NCBI GenBank assembly: GCA_024275165.1
Contig: JAJRZQ010000012.1
Coordinates: 124,001-188,000 of the forward strand
Source of the DNA: a bacterium
GTDB taxonomy: Bacteria; SAR324; XYD2-FULL-50-16
Length of the DNA: 64,000 nucleotides
Reading direction: 5' to 3'
Part shown: positions 47,957 through 59,187 of the stretch, piece after piece
Layout of the letters: the number at the start of each line of letters is the position of its first letter
How positions within the stretch are numbered: the first letter of the stretch is position 1
Made by a program: the position numbers and the translations under genes
The notes under the pieces: model-generated
The model's database searches: none
What the model was told of the DNA's origin: nothing
Seen by the model: the letters and a program-made list of their open reading frames with translations, nothing else

Positions 47957-48991
47957 CTATCGGGCCGAGAATTCCTTGACCGCTTCCACCATCACCTTTA
48001 GGTGTTCCGGGTTCACTTCCTTATCAATGCCGTGACCGAGGTTGAAGATATGGCCTGAGGCGGGGCCTTGTTTGTCTAAAATCGTTTTGACCTTGGCTCG
48101 AATGACCTCTGGATTGGCAAAGAGTACATTGGGGTCTAAATTACCCTGTAGAGCGACCTTGTGCCCAATCAAATCTTTTGCCTGGGCAAGGTCGGCCACC
48201 CAATCCAAGCCAACGACCTCACAACCTGTATTGGCCATTGCGCTTAAGTGCTGGTGCCCTCCATTGATGTAATAGATTTTTGGCACCTTCCCTGGTTGAT
48301 CCAATCCCGCAAAGATTTGCCGCACATAGGGAAAAACAAACTCTTGGTAATCGTCCGGGCAGAGGATGCCGGCCCAGGTGTCGAAGAGTTGCACCATCTT
48401 TACCCCATGAGCGATTTGGTAGTTGAGGTAACGGGTCGTCATTGCCGTGAGCTTTTCCATCAGTTGATGGGCTAGGGCGGGTTGCTCAAAAAAGAGGGCT
48501 TTGGTTTTAGAAAAAAGTTTGCTCCCGCCGCCTTCGACGGCGTAGCAGGCTAGGGTAAAGGGGGCCCCGGCAAAGCCGATGACCGGTACCCGTTCGCGGA
48601 GTTCTGGGACTAAAATATCCAAGATTTGGCCCACATAGGGCACATTGTCATCGGGGTCGGGGAGGCGCAGAGCCGCGATGTCGGCAGCAGCGCGAAGGGG
48701 GTTGTGGATGACCGGCGCGGGATTGAAGGAAAGCTTGATGCCCATGCCTTCTAAGGGGGTCAAAATATCGGAAAACAAGATGGCCGCGTCCAACCCAAAA
48801 CGGTCAATGGGTTGCAGGGTCACTTCCGCCGCGAGGTCGGGGTTTTTACAGAGGGCGAGAAAATCCCCTGCCTTGGCTCGAGTCGCCCGATACTCGGGGA
48901 GGTAGCGCCCGGCTTGGCGCATGACCCAGACCGGGGTACGCTCAATGGGTTGTTTTTTGGCCGCACGAATGATCAAGTAATCTGAATCCAT
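47957..48991 (-). CDS. hemE: Uroporphyrinogen decarboxylase
   Basis: Decarboxylates uroporphyrinogen III in heme synthesis. The 344 residues contain the N-terminal PVWVMRQAGRYLPEYR (substrate-binding Arg), FSDILTPLEGMG, GFAGAPFTLACYAVEGGGS, and the C-terminal FNLGHGIDKEVNPEHL. Supplies heme for the cytochromes matured by the Ccm system. It overlaps the AMMECR1 gene by one base. Confidence 0.95.
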   Translation of the reverse strand: MDSDYLIIRAAKKQPIERTPVWVMRQAGRYLPEYRATRAKAGDFLALCKNPDLAAEVTLQPIDRFGLDAAILFSDILTPLEGMGIKLSFNPAPVIHNPLRAAADIAALRLPDPDDNVPYVGQILDILVPELRERVPVIGFAGAPFTLACYAVEGGGSKLFSKTKALFFEQPALAHQLMEKLTAMTTRYLNYQIAHGVKMVQLFDTWAGILCPDDYQEFVFPYVRQIFAGLDQPGKVPKIYYINGGHQHLSAMANTGCEVVGLDWVADLAQAKDLIGHKVALQGNLDPNVLFANPEVIRAKVKTILDKQGPASGHIFNLGHGIDKEVNPEHLKVMVEAVKEFSAR

Positions 48992-49572
48992 TAGTCCTCT
49001 TCGTTAAATAGCTGTGCTTGATAGGTGTAAAAGGCCAAGGGTTCTGTTTCCCAGGCCTGCGCGGCGAGCCCTGCCTTTTTGCAGAGTTCGCTTAAAAAAA
49101 GGTCTCTTTCTTGGAGATGATCCCATACTTGGGGTAAAAAAGTAGCGCGGTGGTGACCCCGTTCAATGACAAGTCCCTCTACAAAGGGGCGGATTTGGGT
49201 GATTTTTTCTCGGTTATCGGCTCCTAAAAGCTCCATCAAAGGCGTGAGTACCGAGATTTCCAAACGGACCTCCCTTAACTCATCGGCCAATAATGGGGGA
49301 AAGCGAGGATCGCGCAAAGCCGCTTTGAGGCTGTATTCCTGTACGGCTTTATAGAGGGGAAGCTCTCCCTCGATTTGGCCGACGCAGCCTCGAAGTTGCC
49401 CAAGGCGATGCAGGCTGACAAAGCAACCCTGGGCAGGGGTAAAGCTCGGTCGTTCATAGTTTTCTAAGTAATGGCGAGTACCTAGAAGTTTATTTTCCAG
49501 GGTCTGGCGAGCAAGAGCCAAAAGCAGCTTCCCCTCGGATTGGCTTAAACGAGTTTTCAACGCCACACCCAT
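48991..49572 (-). CDS. AMMECR1-domain protein (AmmeMemoRadiSam protein A-like)
   Basis: A 193-residue AMMECR1 domain: GCFVSLHRLGQLRGCVGQIE (the LRGCIG signature) and VRLEISVLTPL, GLVIERGHHRATFLPQVW. This family is the A component of the AmmeMemoRadiSam system, but the Memo-like and radical-SAM partners are not in this window. Biochemical function is unknown. It overlaps purM by 16 bases. Confidence 0.85.
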   Translation of the reverse strand: MGVALKTRLSQSEGKLLLALARQTLENKLLGTRHYLENYERPSFTPAQGCFVSLHRLGQLRGCVGQIEGELPLYKAVQEYSLKAALRDPRFPPLLADELREVRLEISVLTPLMELLGADNREKITQIRPFVEGLVIERGHHRATFLPQVWDHLQERDLFLSELCKKAGLAAQAWETEPLAFYTYQAQLFNEED

Positions 49573-50732
49573 TGTTCACCTTGATGCTGAATCGTCACCT
49601 GATTGCCCGTCGCGTTGGGTTCCAAATGGCCGATCACCTGGGCCTCGATTCCCATGGAGCGGGCCAGCGCGATGACCCCATCTGCCGCGGATTCCTCAAT
49701 GAAGGCTTCGAGTCGATGACCCATATTAAAGACGGGAAACATCTCTTGCAAATGGAGAGCGCGATCTTTCCGAATGGCGGTAAAAAGAGGAGGGATGGGC
49801 AGCAAGGCGTTTTTGACATAATGGATATTCTGACCGAATTTCAGGCACTTGGTTTGCCCTCCCCCCGAGCAATGGACAAAACCCTGCACTGCGGGGCGGA
49901 ATTCTTCTAAAATCGCTTTGATTAAAGGGGTATAGGTTCTTGTGGGGGAGAGGATCGCCTGCCCCCAATTTAAAGGAGTGCCCGCGAGGGGCTCGGTCAA
50001 GTTTCGTTTTCCGCAATAGACTAAGTCAGGGGGGATTTCGGGGGCAAAGCTTTCGGGGTATTGGCCCGCGTACTCATGGGTAAGGCTGTCGTGGCGCGCG
50101 GCGGTCAACCCGTTGCCGCCGATACCCGAATTATAAGTTTTTTCCCATTTTGCTTGGCCATAGCTGGCAAAGCCGACAATCACCCCCTGGGGCCGCATTG
50201 CGCCTAGGTCAATGACTTGTTTTTTGGGGAGCTTGACCATCAAGGTGGAATCCACGATCAAGGTGCGCACCAAGTCGCCTACATCGGCGGTTTCTCCGCC
50301 GCAGGAATGGATGATCACCCCGAAGTCGGCCAACTCCGTGAGCAACTCCTCATACCCCCAGATGATCGCTTGCACCACCTCCCCAGGGATATGAAACTTG
50401 TTGCGCCCAATGGTGTTGGAAAGCACAAAACCCGTTACCGCGCCGACACAGGCGAGGTCGTCGAGGTTCATGACCAGGCTGTCTTGAGCGATGCCCTTAA
50501 AAACGCTTAAGTCCCCTGTTTCCTTCCAGTAAAGATAGGCTAAGCTGGATTTGGTTCCCGCCCCGTCAGCGTGCATGAGCAGGCAGGAATCCTTATCTTG
50601 GGTGAGATGATCGGGTAAAATCTTGCAAAAGGCACCGGGGAAAAGACCCGGATCAACCCCTTGGATCGCCTGGTGAATCTCGGATTTGGAGGAGGATACC
50701 CCGCGGCCTTCGTAGATTTGGTTTTCGCTCAT
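49557..50732 (-). CDS. purM: Phosphoribosylformylglycinamidine cyclo-ligase (AIR synthase)
   Basis: Makes aminoimidazole ribotide in purine synthesis. The 391-residue product is the longer, divergent PurM form seen in Bacteroidetes and others. Markers are LLMHADGAGTKSSLAYLYW, MNLDDLACVGA, HSCGGETADVGD (glycine-rich loop) and VFNMGHRLEAFI. An AIR-synthase-related protein cannot be fully excluded, but the ATP and substrate loops look intact. Confidence 0.87.
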   Translation of the reverse strand: MSENQIYEGRGVSSSKSEIHQAIQGVDPGLFPGAFCKILPDHLTQDKDSCLLMHADGAGTKSSLAYLYWKETGDLSVFKGIAQDSLVMNLDDLACVGAVTGFVLSNTIGRNKFHIPGEVVQAIIWGYEELLTELADFGVIIHSCGGETADVGDLVRTLIVDSTLMVKLPKKQVIDLGAMRPQGVIVGFASYGQAKWEKTYNSGIGGNGLTAARHDSLTHEYAGQYPESFAPEIPPDLVYCGKRNLTEPLAGTPLNWGQAILSPTRTYTPLIKAILEEFRPAVQGFVHCSGGGQTKCLKFGQNIHYVKNALLPIPPLFTAIRKDRALHLQEMFPVFNMGHRLEAFIEESAADGVIALARSMGIEAQVIGHLEPNATGNQVTIQHQGEQWVWR

Positions 50733-51704: not shown

Positions 51705-52043
51705 TTAGAGCTTCTCTTGCAGGTAATCTTCCCATTCCACCAGCAGCAGGTACTTCTTTTTATTGTTACACTCCTTGCAGGCGGGGACAATATTCCCCTT
51801 GACGCTCTTGCCGCCGCGGCTGAGCGGAATCAAGTGATCCATGGTCAAGTCGCGGGCGTTGAAGCGTTTTTTGCAGTAATGGCAGACCCCTTGCCCCCGT
51901 AGGTTTTTCCACCATTGACTGTGGCGTAATTCACGGGCCTTGGCCTTTTCTTTTTTGATTTCTTTTTCATCAACGCAGATGAAATCGCCTTCCAGTTTCA
52001 AGGCTTTTTCCCTCCGCAGTTGCCGATAGAAGCCTTGGGGCAC
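51705..52043 (-). CDS. HNH endonuclease-domain protein
   Basis: A 112-residue product with a complete McrA-type HNH motif: zinc cysteines CHYC and CKEC bracket the catalytic DHLIPLSRGG and a following Asn. The N-terminal third is basic. Small stand-alone HNH proteins like this are common and of unclear role. Its start overlaps the pentapeptide gene by 46 bases in another frame. Confidence 0.85.
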   Translation of the reverse strand: MPQGFYRQLRREKALKLEGDFICVDEKEIKKEKAKARELRHSQWWKNLRGQGVCHYCKKRFNARDLTMDHLIPLSRGGKSVKGNIVPACKECNNKKKYLLLVEWEDYLQEKL

Positions 52044-52714
52044 AGGCTGCCATCCATCCAGGTGGCCCCGTCCAGTTTTGCCCCGCTAAAGTTGGCTTTT
52101 CTTACCTCCGCCCCCAGCAGGTTCGCCCCTCTTAAGTCCGCGTTTTGAAAATTGGTTTGGATGATTCCCGCCCCTTGCAAATAGGCGCCTCGTAGATTGG
52201 CGTTCATGAAAAGGGCGCCCTCCAAATAGGCGTTTTGCAGGTTGGCCCGCTGTAGGTTGGCCCTTCTAAAATCAGCGTTTAAGAGCTTGCCGAAATAGAG
52301 GTTGGCCCCCTTTAAATTCGCGTCTCGGAGTTCGGCGTAACTGAGGTCGGCCCCATCAAGCTTTGCCCCGGTTAACTCGCTGTGGTTAAACTTGGTAAAG
52401 TTCAAGGTCGCTTGGGAAAAAATAGCCCCAGATAAAACAGCGTAAGTGAGGGTGGCCCAGTTTAGGTTGGCTCTAGTGAATAGAGTTTCTTCAAAATGCC
52501 CGCCCTTGGCCGTGAGCCAGCGCAAATCCGCCTCGGTGAGGTCGGCGCCGGCGAGTTTGGCCTGGGGAATATTCGCTTTTCGCAAGGAAGCCTCGGTGAG
52601 GTCGCAAGCGACGCAGGCCCGTTTTTTCAGCAAAGCTTGCAGGCTTAGGGGGTCAAAGGCAAGCAGACTAGGGGCATAAAAAAGCAGGCAGCAGGCCGTG
52701 AAAAGTCGAATCAT
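51998..52714 (-). CDS. Secreted pentapeptide-repeat protein
   Basis: 238 residues from the ATG at 52714, which gives a clean signal peptide (MIRLFTACCLLFYAPSLLA); a longer frame upstream is not needed. Residues about 35-225 are nearly continuous A(D/N)Lxx pentapeptide repeats such as ANLNWATLTYAVLSGAIF, folding into a right-handed quadrilateral beta-helix. Cysteines near the start of the repeats (RACVACDL) and at the end (LCPKASIGNCGG) may cap it. Periplasmic; function unknown. Confidence 0.85.
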   Translation of the reverse strand: MIRLFTACCLLFYAPSLLAFDPLSLQALLKKRACVACDLTEASLRKANIPQAKLAGADLTEADLRWLTAKGGHFEETLFTRANLNWATLTYAVLSGAIFSQATLNFTKFNHSELTGAKLDGADLSYAELRDANLKGANLYFGKLLNADFRRANLQRANLQNAYLEGALFMNANLRGAYLQGAGIIQTNFQNADLRGANLLGAEVRKANFSGAKLDGATWMDGSLCPKASIGNCGGKKP

Positions 52715-52807
52715 CGCTGGGATGGGTTTTGGGTTTTCTGCGCAAAGCTTCTCCCATTTCAAGAGTCTTTGCAAGCCTATTGAGAAATGCGTTAACGAGG
52801 CTTTCGG

Positions 52808-54127: not shown

Positions 54128-54658
54128 TTAATATTCCTTTAAATATTTCAGGGTTTGCTGGGCCCAAAGGGTGATATTGAAGTAGACCTTGACCACAATG
54201 ACGGAGACCAAAAGCCAGCCCAAGGCTTCATGCAGGATCAGGAAATAGCTGGCTCGCGGCAAAAAGACAAAAGCGCCTTTGTTGGCCATGTAATAAATAA
54301 AACCCAGTAAGCCAAGTAGCCCTAAGAGAAGATAAAAAACTCGGTTGACCCATTGTTGCAGGGGGACATCTCGATAGGCCTCTAAGTTTAAACGGTGTTT
54401 TTGCTTTTTTCTTAAAACGGGGTAAAGAAAAAAATCAGCCCAATCGTAGGCTAATAAAAATAAAAAAAAGAGCAGCATAAACCCGCATAAGCGGTGCAGG
54501 GTCAAAAGCTCTGCTCGGGTAAAGAATTTAGCCTGTTCTGGATGAAGTAAGCGGTAGGCGGTATAATAACAAATGAGCAGAAACAAAAGTAGGAGATAGC
54601 GGCGAAGAAACCGGATACCCGAGCGATAGCTTTTTTGGATTTGATCTGCGAGGTTCAT
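54128..54658 (-). CDS. Hydrogenase-type cytochrome b-like membrane protein
   Basis: A 176-residue membrane protein with four predicted helices (about 21-38, 55-72, 106-123, 138-162). Position and topology match HyaC/HupC, the diheme cytochrome b that passes electrons between uptake hydrogenase and quinone. Histidines near helix ends are H39, H55 (LHRLCGF) and H143 (LHEALGW). The usual ligands in helix 1 (RxxHW) and in the last helix (HVY) are missing; the latter reads VKVY. It may bind fewer hemes. Overlaps the large-subunit gene by ATGA. Confidence 0.65.
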   Translation of the reverse strand: MNLADQIQKSYRSGIRFLRRYLLLLFLLICYYTAYRLLHPEQAKFFTRAELLTLHRLCGFMLLFFLFLLAYDWADFFLYPVLRKKQKHRLNLEAYRDVPLQQWVNRVFYLLLGLLGLLGFIYYMANKGAFVFLPRASYFLILHEALGWLLVSVIVVKVYFNITLWAQQTLKYLKEY

Positions 54659-56082
54659 TGGCTGGCGTCTAACCCTTGAGCGTAGTAACTGTGAAGGATG
54701 CGCGAGAGTTGCAAGGGGGAGGTTCGCGGTAAATCTTGTTGATGGATTTCTTGCAAGGCGGGGCCGAATTTACCAAATTCGTCCTTGCCGGCTAAATTCC
54801 AGTTTTGCGCCGTCACAACGCGATAATTGAGAACCTTGCCCTTATCAATATAGACCTGATGCAAGAGGCTCCCCGCCGGGGCTTCGCATTTGCCCAGCCC
54901 GATCCCCCGTTTGGAAAAATCAAAATTGCCGCCTTGGTTTAGGGGGAGGCTGTAATCCAGATCCAAAAGGGATTGAAAGCTGTTTTTCAAAAAGGCGCGG
55001 GCTTCTAAAAAGAGGGAGATCAAGCGCGCTGCCGCGGAATTGCTTCCCAGTTCCTCAAAATGAAAGCTTTTGTCTAGCGTCTGCACTAAATCGCTGATTT
55101 CTGCGTTGCCGCCGCCGAAGTGGGTGACCAGCATGCGGGCCAAGGCCCCGCAAAGTAAGGGCTCGGTTTCATAGCGAGCTGATTTGATCCAGGTTTGGGC
55201 GTCTCGTTTGGCTAGGTCGTAAACGATTTTAGAAGAATCGGCTCCATAAAAGGAATCTTTATAAAAGGTGCCTTGTAGGGATTCGGTGATCTTTAACTCA
55301 TTGACGGGCTCTAAGCGATGCCCTTGGTAGACCCCGGCGGAGTAGGAAATCACATTGTCCAAGAGGGGGGGGAAACTTCCAAAGCTTAATAATCCAAGGG
55401 TTTTGGAAAAAACCTGCCCCAATTCGGGGAAAGCCTTGATGAGTTGTTTGACATCCTCGGGCCAGGCGCGCTCGATGAGGTCTTTGCATTGTTCCAAATG
55501 GCGCAATACCGCCATGATTCGATCGCGCTCCAAGGGGGGAGCGGTGATTCCGCCGGGAATCAGCCAAAGACCGGCGGGAAATTTCCCCGTGAAACTACAA
55601 ATTGCTTTTTCTAAATGGGAGAGGGTCTCTCTCACCAAGGGGTAATGGGCCATGAAATCGCGGGTTTCATCTAGGCTGAGAAACCGATCCCCTCTAGAGT
55701 TGTAGCTGGGAGGGGTAAAGTAAAAACCCCATTGGGGGTTGCGTTTTAGGTAGCTTGGTGACAGGTAATCGGGCAGCAGTTCTAAATAGAAATAAGAGAG
55801 GTGAGCGTGCAGCGTGGCCAATTCCGAAACCACGCGGCGGAGGATCGCCGCGGTTTGCGTGGGTTTGAGTTGGAGATAGTCCTCCAAGGCTAAAACCGCT
55901 GCCAACCCGTGATGGATTGCCGATTTGCCGGAAAGCTGTTGGCTTAAGCTTATCGCTTCTAAAGGAAAGCGGTTGAAGAGGCGCCCTTCTAGGTTCAGGC
56001 TGCGGCCACTACGCAAGGAGAATTCGCCCCTTTGGTTGTTGAAGTGTAAAATCCCCTCGATATTATAAAGGTGTTGCTTCAT
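54655..56082 (-). CDS. [NiFe] hydrogenase large subunit-like protein without metal ligands
   Basis: 475 residues colinear with the large subunit of group 1 uptake hydrogenases: LATLHAHLSYFYLELLPDY near 88-106, FPAGLWLIPGGITAPP near 168-183, WIKSARYETEP, and GKCEAPAGSLLH near the end. The N-terminal RxCGxC is replaced by QLSGKS (S51 and S54), though the following His is kept (H58). The C-terminal DPCxxC is replaced within SYYAQGLDASQ (Q469, D472). All four NiFe-binding cysteines are absent and there is no C-terminal peptide to process. H2 activation is therefore not expected. The frame is intact. Confidence 0.85.
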   Translation of the reverse strand: MKQHLYNIEGILHFNNQRGEFSLRSGRSLNLEGRLFNRFPLEAISLSQQLSGKSAIHHGLAAVLALEDYLQLKPTQTAAILRRVVSELATLHAHLSYFYLELLPDYLSPSYLKRNPQWGFYFTPPSYNSRGDRFLSLDETRDFMAHYPLVRETLSHLEKAICSFTGKFPAGLWLIPGGITAPPLERDRIMAVLRHLEQCKDLIERAWPEDVKQLIKAFPELGQVFSKTLGLLSFGSFPPLLDNVISYSAGVYQGHRLEPVNELKITESLQGTFYKDSFYGADSSKIVYDLAKRDAQTWIKSARYETEPLLCGALARMLVTHFGGGNAEISDLVQTLDKSFHFEELGSNSAAARLISLFLEARAFLKNSFQSLLDLDYSLPLNQGGNFDFSKRGIGLGKCEAPAGSLLHQVYIDKGKVLNYRVVTAQNWNLAGKDEFGKFGPALQEIHQQDLPRTSPLQLSRILHSYYAQGLDASQ

Positions 56083-57065
56083 GGGGAAGGGTGATCCTTT
56101 GAGTCAGAGTCTTCAAGTTTCGGGGTGAATTCTTTCGCGGCTTGGCTTTGCCGACTGATCGCGTGGGTGATGACTCCTAAGGTGGTGACGCCTAAGGCCC
56201 CGGCCCCAAGGGTTTCTAAGGTTTGCACCCAGTTCGCGTTGGCCTGCAAGCGGTCGCCTTGAATTTGACCGAAAAGGCCCAATCCGGAGTTGTCCGGGTA
56301 TTCCGGGTTCGAGCAGCCTGTGCAGGGATGCCCCACAGAGAGGCACCAGTCTTCGCCTAAATCCCATTTATGGCTGGCACAGGTATTTTTGGTGATCAAG
56401 CCCTTGCAGCCCAAGGTGAAGAGGCAGCCTGAGGGATCCCCTAAAAAAGAGGCAAAGTGACCGTTTTCCAAATCCTTTCGTTTATCGCAATGATCACAGA
56501 GGATTTGCTTAAAAAACATACTCGGACGGCGGTATTCATCAAGTTGGGGAAAACCGTACAACAGCAGGTGGTTTAAAACTCCGAGCAGGTGAAAGGATTG
56601 GGCGGGTTCGCCGGGGATGCGGATAAAGGGAACTTCTAAGGGGTAGAGGAATTCTTGTTCCACATTGAGATAACCCTCCATGTTTTTTGCGGAATAACTG
56701 GCCTCGTTGCCTAAAAGAATGACGACCCGTGCCTTGGAGAAGAGATTTTTTAAGGGAGCAAAGGATTCATCTCGGTCAACGGCAAAGGCCCCCTCTAAGA
56801 TGAGAATAAAGCCCGCCTTAATGGCCCGCAGAGAGCTGTAGGGATTATAAAAGAGAAAGTGCTCTTCTAAAAAATGCCCCAACTGCTGCTGGAAAAAGCG
56901 CCCAGCGGAGTGGAGCCCGCTGTGCTGCTCTTGCAGCCAGAGGATGGGTTTTTCTGCCCCTTGGGCAAAGAGGCTTTGCTGGAAGGTTTCCAATAAAAAT
57001 GGGAGGGCAATGGCCCCCTGGGAAAGCTTTAGCAGAAAATCTCTGCGAGATAAAGGCTGGGTCAT
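56079..57065 (-). CDS. [NiFe] hydrogenase small subunit-like protein lacking the proximal cluster
   Basis: 328 residues with a Tat signal (SRRDFLLKL, 6-14), so exported folded, and a C-terminal membrane helix (about 284-303) as in HyaA/HupS. All proximal-cluster cysteines are replaced: H48, L51 (HSGL for CTGC), E121 (GNEA for GTCA) and E153 (PGEP for PGCP). The distal site keeps C193, C214 and C220 and has C190 in place of the usual His. The medial site has C229, C248, C251 and C241 where a Pro usually allows only a [3Fe-4S] cluster. So two [4Fe-4S] clusters are likely. Confidence 0.86.
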   Translation of the reverse strand: MTQPLSRRDFLLKLSQGAIALPFLLETFQQSLFAQGAEKPILWLQEQHSGLHSAGRFFQQQLGHFLEEHFLFYNPYSSLRAIKAGFILILEGAFAVDRDESFAPLKNLFSKARVVILLGNEASYSAKNMEGYLNVEQEFLYPLEVPFIRIPGEPAQSFHLLGVLNHLLLYGFPQLDEYRRPSMFFKQILCDHCDKRKDLENGHFASFLGDPSGCLFTLGCKGLITKNTCASHKWDLGEDWCLSVGHPCTGCSNPEYPDNSGLGLFGQIQGDRLQANANWVQTLETLGAGALGVTTLGVITHAISRQSQAAKEFTPKLEDSDSKDHPSP

Positions 57066-57958
57066 GGAGTTTTGGGAATCCTGGTGCGGTAAATCGCCTT
57101 GGCTTGCGCGTCGTAAAATTCGATATCTAGGTTCACAGAATCTAAGCTTATTCTGATAAATCCAGGCCCGGAGTGGGAAAAATGGCTTTCCGCAAGGCTT
57201 GGCTTGGGTTCGCTGCTGGTCGCGGCGCCTCCGCCCCCCCCTGAGATTAGATATTGGGTTGAAAGTCCCCTTCTCGTCAAGTGTTCCAAGTGATGATCGT
57301 GCCCGGACAGATATAAATCCGCTCGCTCCCCTAAGGCTTGAAGCCAGACCCAGCGGCGCAAAAAGGGGGCGTCTCCATGATTTTTAGAAGCATAAATAGG
57401 GTGGTGGCCAAAAAGAATCTTCCAGGGTTGGGGCCCCTTTAAGGCCTCGCGTGCCCAAGGCAGTTCCAGGGATTGGCAATTGGTATTGATCCCGACAAAG
57501 AGCGCCGGCCCCGCGGCAAAACGGTAAGACCCCGCGGGCATGCGCCAATTTTTTTTCCCGTTCAAGGCGACCTGGGCGGAACCCTCTCCCTTGACATCGT
57601 GATTTCCTAAAATAGCATAGAAAGGGAGGCCGAGAGAAGAGTAGATATTTGAAAAAACCCGGTCAAAAAGAGGATCATTAGGATTTTTCAACCCCTTGGG
57701 GTAGAAGTTATCCCCTAAGAGCAATACAAAGTCACAGGCCTTGTTTTGGCAGACTTTTTTGATTGCCTTGGCCACTGTTTTTTGCATGGGCAGGCCGGTA
57801 CCCGTATCCCCGAGGACGATAAAGGAAGCCTGTTTTCGTTGGTGCAGGGTTTGAAGCTCTTCACTGCTGGGGAAGAGGCAGACCTTTTCTTTGGCGGAGG
57901 ACCACACAAAGATGGCAAACCCCAAGGGGAGCAAGGCAAGGAAAATTTTTAACTTCAT
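57062..57958 (-). CDS. Exported metallophosphoesterase (purple acid phosphatase-like)
   Basis: A 298-residue calcineurin-like phosphoesterase with an N-terminal signal or anchor (MKLKIFLALLPLGFAIFVW). Metal motifs are VLGDTGTG, LGDNFYP (the extra Tyr is typical of purple acid phosphatases), GNHD, FGHHPIY and SGHDHHLEH. The substrate is unknown; it acts outside the cytoplasm. It overlaps fliI upstream and the hydrogenase-like small subunit downstream by ATGA. Confidence 0.87.
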   Translation of the reverse strand: MKLKIFLALLPLGFAIFVWSSAKEKVCLFPSSEELQTLHQRKQASFIVLGDTGTGLPMQKTVAKAIKKVCQNKACDFVLLLGDNFYPKGLKNPNDPLFDRVFSNIYSSLGLPFYAILGNHDVKGEGSAQVALNGKKNWRMPAGSYRFAAGPALFVGINTNCQSLELPWAREALKGPQPWKILFGHHPIYASKNHGDAPFLRRWVWLQALGERADLYLSGHDHHLEHLTRRGLSTQYLISGGGGGAATSSEPKPSLAESHFSHSGPGFIRISLDSVNLDIEFYDAQAKAIYRTRIPKTP

Positions 57959-59187
57959 TTTTCGCTGCCAATGCGATCTTTGGGGAAGTCTTTGAAAATT
58001 TGTTCTAACATGGCTTCGGTCTCCAACATCAAAAAGCGTTCGTTGACTCCTTGGCGTAAAAAGTCGTTGATGGCGTTGATTTTTTTTAAGGCGTAGTCGA
58101 TTTTCGCATTGGAACCCTTGACATAAGCCCCGATGTTGACTAAATCTTCGGCCTCTTTGTAATTGGCGTAAGTCATTAAGAGCTTGATGGAGTTTTCCAA
58201 GATGCTGGAACCGGCTACATCAATCATGACTCGGCTCTTGGAACGGAGGATGTCGATGGCGGGGTAATGCCCCTGGGCGGCGATTTCTCGGTCTAAGAGA
58301 ATGTGCCCATCCACGATGGAGCGCACCGCGTCTCCAATGGGTTCGTTGGGGTCGTCTCCTTCGGATAAAACGGTATAAAATCCGGTGATGCTGCCCTTTC
58401 CCGCCGCGTTTCCCGCTCGTTCGAGCAGTTTCGGGAGCAGGCCGAACACGCTGGGGGGGTAGCCCTTGGTGGTCGGGGGTTCCCCCACGGCAAGGCCGAT
58501 TTCTCGTTGAGACTGCGCCCAGCGCGAGACGGAATCCATCATAAAGAGAACATCCTTGCCTTGAGAGCGGAAGTATTCGGCAATCGAGGTGGCTAAGTAG
58601 GCCCCGTGAATGCGCACTAGAGGGGGTTGGTCGCTGGTGGCGGCGATGACGACGGAGCGTTTTAAGCCCTCTGGGCCGAGGTCTCGCTCAATAAATTCTT
58701 TGACCTCTCTGCCCCTTTCGCCAATTAAAGCGATGACATTCACATCGGCAGTCGTGTTTTTTGCCATCATGCCCAATAAAACCGATTTCCCCACCCCAGA
58801 GCCCGCTAAAATGGCGAGCCGTTGCCCCTTGCCGCAGGTCAAGAGACCGTTGATCGCCTTGATGCCGACATCTAAGGATTCGGTGATGCGTTTTCGCTGT
58901 AGGGGGTTGAGGGGAGGAGAAAAAAGGGGAGCCTGAGTATCGAAATCAATGGGGCCCAACCCGTCAATCGGTTCGCCTAGGCCATCAATACTGCGGCCCA
59001 ACAAGGCCGGACCCACAGGAACCGAGTTTTCCTTGTGGGTAGGCAGGATTAAACTTTCAGGGCCGATTCCGCGAATATCCCCTAAAGGCATGACTAAGAT
59101 TTTGCCCTCTTTAAATCCCACCGCTTCACCGAGAACGCTGGTCCCCGTTTGGGGATGAACGATTTTGCATTGATCCCCGATCTGCAT
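57955..59187 (-). CDS. fliI: Flagellar export ATPase FliI (main frame; N-terminus shifted)
   Basis: ATPase that drives flagellar type III export. This frame gives 410 residues with Walker A GSGVGKSVL, the conserved GERGREVKEFIERDLG, MMDSVSRWAQSQREIGLAVGEPPTTKGYPPSVF (as separate blocks), and the C-terminal helical domain. FliI is usually about 430-450 residues, and its missing first ~36 residues are encoded just upstream in another frame (59297 to about 59205). Either the gene is frameshifted or translation begins internally at MQIGDQC. Confidence 0.9.
   Translation of the reverse strand: MQIGDQCKIVHPQTGTSVLGEAVGFKEGKILVMPLGDIRGIGPESLILPTHKENSVPVGPALLGRSIDGLGEPIDGLGPIDFDTQAPLFSPPLNPLQRKRITESLDVGIKAINGLLTCGKGQRLAILAGSGVGKSVLLGMMAKNTTADVNVIALIGERGREVKEFIERDLGPEGLKRSVVIAATSDQPPLVRIHGAYLATSIAEYFRSQGKDVLFMMDSVSRWAQSQREIGLAVGEPPTTKGYPPSVFGLLPKLLERAGNAAGKGSITGFYTVLSEGDDPNEPIGDAVRSIVDGHILLDREIAAQGHYPAIDILRSKSRVMIDVAGSSILENSIKLLMTYANYKEAEDLVNIGAYVKGSNAKIDYALKKINAINDFLRQGVNERFLMLETEAMLEQIFKDFPKDRIGSEK

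Follow-up and report, generated by a model that had tools for sequence, protein, structure and literature searches.

Three adjacent genes of a SAR324 bacterium appear to encode a retained three-subunit membrane redox complex that descends from a group 1 [NiFe] hydrogenase and acts on a substrate other than H2, a reading to which we give a probability of roughly 0.6. The genes lie on the minus strand of a 64,000-nucleotide stretch of contig JAJRZQ010000012.1, referred to here as the window, as do the fliI and phosphoesterase genes next to them and all the features within these genes. They encode a pseudo-hydrogenase large subunit of 475 residues (P0001; 54655–56082), a small subunit-like protein of 328 residues (P0002; 56079–57065) and a four-TM cytochrome b of 176 residues (P0003; 54128–54658). 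A sequence-only reading of the same DNA had drawn attention to the loss of all four NiFe-binding cysteines from the large subunit; beyond it, we found that the small subunit has lost its proximal-cluster cysteines and gained cysteines at the medial and distal clusters, and that the partner cytochrome b carries a single heme.

P0001 is a group 1 large subunit without NiFe ligands

The Pfam family NiFeSe_Hases (PF00374) matched P0001 at 1e-40, above the Pfam cut-off, and the closest relatives of solved structure by sequence were group 1 large subunits of [NiFeSe] and [NiFe] hydrogenases. An AlphaFold2 model (pLDDT 83, pTM 0.89) aligned with solved group 1 large subunits over approximately the whole chain (TM 0.81–0.86), in keeping with the sequence-only reading, which had described a group 1 scaffold preserved end to end. 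The family model of the complex I subunit NuoD (49 kDa) reached P0001 only at E = 0.21, and the true NuoD of the host genome is encoded separately, on contig C17.

When P0001 was aligned with E. coli HyaB and its orthologues, S51, S54, Q469 and D472 fell at HyaB C76, C79, C576 and C579. The former RxCGxC motif thus reads QLSGKS, with S51-G-K-S54 at 55921–55932, and the former DPCxxC motif reads YAQGLD, with Q469-G-L-D472 at 54667–54678. P0001 ends three residues past D472, in the alignment column that holds the cleavage-site His of HyaB (His582), and therefore has no C-terminal peptide. This absence had been noted from the sequence and is real, but it is not diagnostic, since four large subunits from the host's phylum that do bear the cysteines (L021, L022, L028 and L032) also end exactly at the cleavage-site His without such a peptide.

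The cysteine loss is shared by a clade of intact orthologues

Orthologues, counted as a small subunit of the P0002 type together with a large subunit, were found in 17 of the 52 genomes, all MAGs, that represent the phylum SAR324/Lambdaproteobacteria. Carriers make up 8 of the 10 genomes of family f1, to which the window belongs, 9 of 10 in family f4 and none of 31 in family f3, where families, like E-values, are those of the collections searched. Small subunits of the clade scored 380–500 bits against less than 165 bits for canonical ones. The collection scan relied on a small-subunit alignment and two small-subunit peptide patterns, so that Cys-less complexes with other patterns would escape it; a single-sequence scan of the genome contig collection returned no relatives. 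In the HyaB-referenced alignment the four NiFe cysteine columns are intact in 64/64 canonical large subunits and in 0/17 members of the clade, which confirms the replacement of these ligands read from P0001. The RxCGxC, DPCxxC and small-subunit CxGC motifs are all missing from 16/16 scanned loci of the clade, and the next-best matches after these loci came from other phyla and had canonical motifs. As 17 independent genomes agree, the cysteine loss is not a sequencing error. A tree of the 64 canonical and 17 clade large subunits, computed with the motif columns removed, separated the two sets at a branch supported at 100/100.

The sequence-only reading had looked to close homologues with normal CxxC motifs as its challenge; homologues with identities as low as 24–28% all lack the four cysteines. 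It had also named homologues with the same Ser/Ser/Gln/Asp replacements as possible support. Here the loss itself proved common to 17/17 members, but the replacing residues differ within the clade (S/G/T, S/G/N, Q/S/V and D/E at the four columns). Its view that the gene is not simply decaying holds as well. Reading frames are intact in the 17 orthologues, and within one genus pN is approximately 0.25 for the large and 0.18–0.21 for the small subunit (overall range 0.18–0.28), against a pS of 0.76–0.86 (overall 0.75–0.86) that is saturated, the closest relatives available for this comparison being 60–72% identical. As read from these rates, the large- and small-subunit genes are under purifying selection. 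A decaying pseudogene would account for the lost catalytic residues, but we consider it refuted by 17 intact orthologues in two families, their invariant cofactor ligands and a pN far below pS.

Beyond the four ligands, the second-sphere Arg of HyaB (R509) is replaced by A/G/S/T in 17/17 clade members, and HyaB D118 (A or S, plus one T and one G) and D574 (Y/F/A/N/Q) are likewise lost in 17/17. These losses bear on a quite improbable alternative, in which the Ser/Ser/(Gln,Ser)/Asp set holds a metal of another kind and the enzyme still acts on H2, or on a related gas, by a new route. In favour of it, the D472 column is D or E in all 16 rows having a residue there, and three residues of the former active site (E9, P402 and H58) are kept. 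It is opposed by the variation of both Ser positions to Gly, Thr or Asn, by the absence of R509, D118 and D574, by the loss of the electron-accepting proximal cluster and by a host without NiFe maturation genes. Since the residues that replace the first two cysteines are not strictly conserved, a defined new metal site at these positions is doubtful.

The host genome lacks NiFe maturation genes

Searches of the host genome (G000, 98% complete) found no HypD, no HypF zinc finger and no HycI-type maturation protease, and P0002 has the sole group 1 small-subunit C-terminal domain in this genome, which contains no other hydrogenase small subunit. HypD is also missing from eight other carriers, making 9 of 17, several of which are more than 90% complete; the eight carriers that have HypD mostly carry canonical hydrogenases as well. 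NiFe chemistry is thus likely not performed in the host. The earlier proposal that P0001 has lost H2 activation and been repurposed gains support from the clade-wide cysteine loss and from this set of missing genes.

Large-subunit-like proteins without the full cysteine set also exist as the maturation scaffolds HupK and HoxV, which are solo cytoplasmic factors with neither a small subunit nor a cytochrome partner. P0001 resembles them in lacking the cysteines, and a solo large-subunit-like protein that looks like HupK/HoxV does occur in the host and in genomes G002 and G004. We nevertheless judge a scaffold role for P0001 to be very improbable, as P0001 is encoded in an operon together with a Tat-signal small subunit and a cytochrome b, and its host lacks HypD as well as any hydrogenase that would need maturing. 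The solo protein itself is encoded outside the window (contig C33; L141:8355–9551), has 399 residues, has lost its CxxC and ends in DPCVDY. Its relatives in G002 (L142:7435–8646, adjoining a HypB-like GTPase) and G004 (L145:1474–2610) lack the cysteines and keep an Arg-Gly motif. Although the host has no HypD, the solo protein looks like HupK/HoxV in sequence; a candidate assignment of the C33 protein as NuoD was rejected, since it proved a distinct large-subunit-like protein, NuoD itself being encoded on C17.

The small subunit has lost the proximal cluster and gained medial and distal cysteines

P0002 begins with a Tat signal whose twin arginines (R7-R8; 57042–57047) are invariant in 15/15 sequences, and it ends with a C-terminal membrane anchor helix (residues 277–311; 56133–56237), seen as a helix in a low-confidence model. 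In the proximal-cluster domain (56607–56921), all four ligand cysteines are lost in 17/17 members, and P0002 has S49, H52, E121 and E153 in their place; the E121 column is E or D in 17/17, and the E153 column is variable.

The Fe-S domain that follows (56313–56498) contains eight cysteines that are invariant in 17/17 clade small subunits. Four correspond to the distal cluster (C190, C193, C214 and C220) and four to the medial cluster (C229, C241, C248 and C251). C190 stands in place of a His found in 64/64 canonical relatives, and C241 in place of a Pro found in many of them. In Desulfovibrio fructosovorans, changing this medial Pro to Cys converts a [3Fe-4S] to a [4Fe-4S] cluster, and [NiFeSe] and sensor hydrogenases naturally have Cys at that position (PMC3701524). 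Since their ligands are now all Cys, both the medial and the distal clusters of the clade are predicted to be [4Fe-4S].

The cytochrome b retains one bis-His heme

P0003 is of the hydrogenase/formate dehydrogenase type, with FdnI (1kqf_C) as its best solved relative. The Pfam family PF01292 matched 11 of 15 members of the clade at E-values up to 0.1, P0003 itself lying just under the cut-off. Sequence identity among members is only 14–34%, and across the 15 sequences M1, H55, G119, H143 and Y172 are the only invariant residues. H55 in TM2 (54494–54496), which aligns with FdnI H57, and H143 in TM4 (54230–54232) are the heme ligands. The His found 14 residues after the H143 position in HyaC is K157 in P0003; f1 sequences have Lys or Arg there, and f4 sequences vary. 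The TM1 His is missing too, and with it the ligands of heme bC are gone. In FdnI, which keeps both hemes, the ligands are H57/H155 for bP and H18/H169 for bC. By this pattern, the loss of the +14 and TM1 His leaves the heme nearer the periplasm, bP, in place and removes bC.

Ligand conservation in the three subunits therefore trims the canonical chain of NiFe, proximal, medial and distal centres, heme bP and heme bC at both ends, to medial, distal and heme bP. An unlikely alternative is that the complex has a non-redox structural or assembly role, in which the small subunit's need for the clusters in folding would be the sole reason for their retention. Fe-S clusters often stabilise such domains, and the residues of the old active-site interface do vary. 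Electron transfer is instead indicated by a bis-His heme that is strictly kept in a partner otherwise only 14–34% identical, and by the gain of Cys at two cluster positions.

The three-gene unit lies near flagellar genes in two families

In the window, the genes run on the minus strand in the order fliI, phosphoesterase, small subunit, large subunit and cytochrome b, with 4-bp start/stop overlaps at each junction. The FliI ATPase gene (57955–59187) is the end of a flagellar operon that runs into the unit, and the calcineurin-like phosphoesterase gene (57062–57958) overlaps both fliI and the small-subunit gene. The phosphoesterase has an N-terminal hydrophobic stretch; because it is found in only some f1 relatives, it is no core part of the unit. 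The order of the three remaining genes is preserved in the readable loci. Downstream genes differ between the families, CoaE and VanY in f1 and an acyl-CoA dehydrogenase-like gene, named by sequence alone, in f4, and at 1e-6 no neighbouring gene besides the three was common to f1 and f4; since the downstream genes differ, the core unit is the three genes.

The unit adjoins fliI in nearly all readable f1 loci. In f4, flhA lies within approximately 4 kb in 5 of 9 loci, with the unit divergent from fliR-flhB-flhA, and an S24-like regulator gene lies between the two in several loci; several other f4 loci have no flagellar gene nearby. Beside the unit in six f4 loci (L049:7329–7976, L044:5946–6719 and others) stands a gene of one family; both members examined proved to be S24 peptidases (LexA/CI-like). 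Proximity to flagellar genes in both families, in different operons, is suggestive but not proof of an old link. Flagella were also considered as a co-occurring trait and proved uninformative, as FlhA is near-universal in the class, being present in every genome except the low-completeness G007 and including genomes without the complex.

These neighbourhoods are relevant to a possible though rather improbable reading in which the large subunit is a mere scaffold and the clusters and heme act as an electron wire or redox sensor, passing information on the quinone pool's redox state to a partner protein that might be linked to motility. The adjoining flagellar genes in both families despite different operons, together with the run of overlapping genes from fliI to the cytochrome in the window, speak for such a role. 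We found no signalling domain and no common partner gene, however; flagella do not require the complex, and the f4 loci without a nearby flagellar gene also count against it.

Elsewhere in the window, an AIR-synthase-related protein and an AMMECR1 protein are encoded side by side (49557–50732 and 48991–49572), an order kept in f1 relatives (L034, L035), and a pentapeptide-repeat protein gene overlaps an HNH endonuclease gene (51705–52774).

A proposed redox complex with a new interface site

Under our preferred reading, a redox complex acting on a substrate other than H2, the small subunit would carry the co-folded large subunit through the Tat system, and the complex would sit on the periplasmic face, with the small-subunit helix and the cytochrome as its anchors. 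A membrane donor or acceptor would exchange electrons at heme bP, and the distal and medial [4Fe-4S] clusters would connect this heme to a cavity at the interface of the large and small subunits. The cavity would comprise the former proximal cluster and NiFe site, where a small molecule or cofactor other than H2 may be reduced or oxidised, and conserved acids (E9 and D472 of the large subunit, E/D121 of the small subunit) may bind protons or a metal. We infer a working interface site in preference to a dead scaffold: the interface is the only place to which the medial cluster leads, and this cluster would be kept and upgraded only if electrons leave that way. It counts against this reading that f1 and f4 have different gene neighbourhoods once the flagellar association is set aside.

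Comparison with known systems

The clade resembles group 1 membrane-bound hydrogenases such as E. coli HyaABC and the periplasmic [NiFe] and [NiFeSe] enzymes in its large-subunit fold, its Tat-signal small subunit with a C-terminal anchor, its cytochrome b, its gene order, the positions of the medial and distal clusters and heme bP. It differs from them in having no NiFe cysteines, second-sphere Arg, proximal cysteines or heme bC ligands, in the change of the distal His and medial Pro to Cys, and in a host devoid of maturation genes. The analogy with NuoD drawn by the sequence-only reading is apt in that both large subunits lost all four NiFe cysteines and were repurposed. It fails at the clusters, as complex I (NuoD/NuoB; 49 kDa, PSST) keeps the proximal cluster, N2, whereas the clade lost the proximal and kept the medial and distal clusters instead. 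Complex I is moreover cytoplasmic and ion-pumping, while the clade protein is Tat-targeted and of group 1 lineage. The sulfane sulfur reductase MBS (MbsL/MbsJ) is likewise hydrogenase-derived, with NiFe cysteines lost and a cluster used for other chemistry; MbsL retains 2 of the 4 cysteines and MbsJ a modified proximal cluster (PMC7684303). MBS and complex I belong to the membrane group 4/complex I branch, and the clade differs from MBS in branch and in membrane arm.

With about even odds, the clade represents a new class of periplasmic oxidoreductase in which both ends of the chain are lost, the core is medial cluster, distal cluster and heme bP, and a new substrate site lies at the interface. 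Hydrogen chemistry would then have been abandoned twice independently, once in the complex I branch and once here. A study of SAR324 aquifer genomes mentions group 1d hydrogenases and not a Cys-less complex (PMC9031357), and a second SAR324 genome paper does not mention hydrogenases (PMC4782131). The open-licence literature that we searched contained no earlier description of a Cys-less group 1 large subunit or complex.

Among repurposed hydrogenases, complex I is the best known example, together with its relatives in group 4. Another example that arose in the periplasmic group 1 branch, and that lost other centres, would allow the routes of hydrogenase repurposing to be compared. It also carries a warning for annotation, as family profiles such as Pfam's label P0001 a nickel-dependent hydrogenase, and surveys of H2 use in SAR324 could miscount proteins of the P0001 type unless the cysteines are checked.
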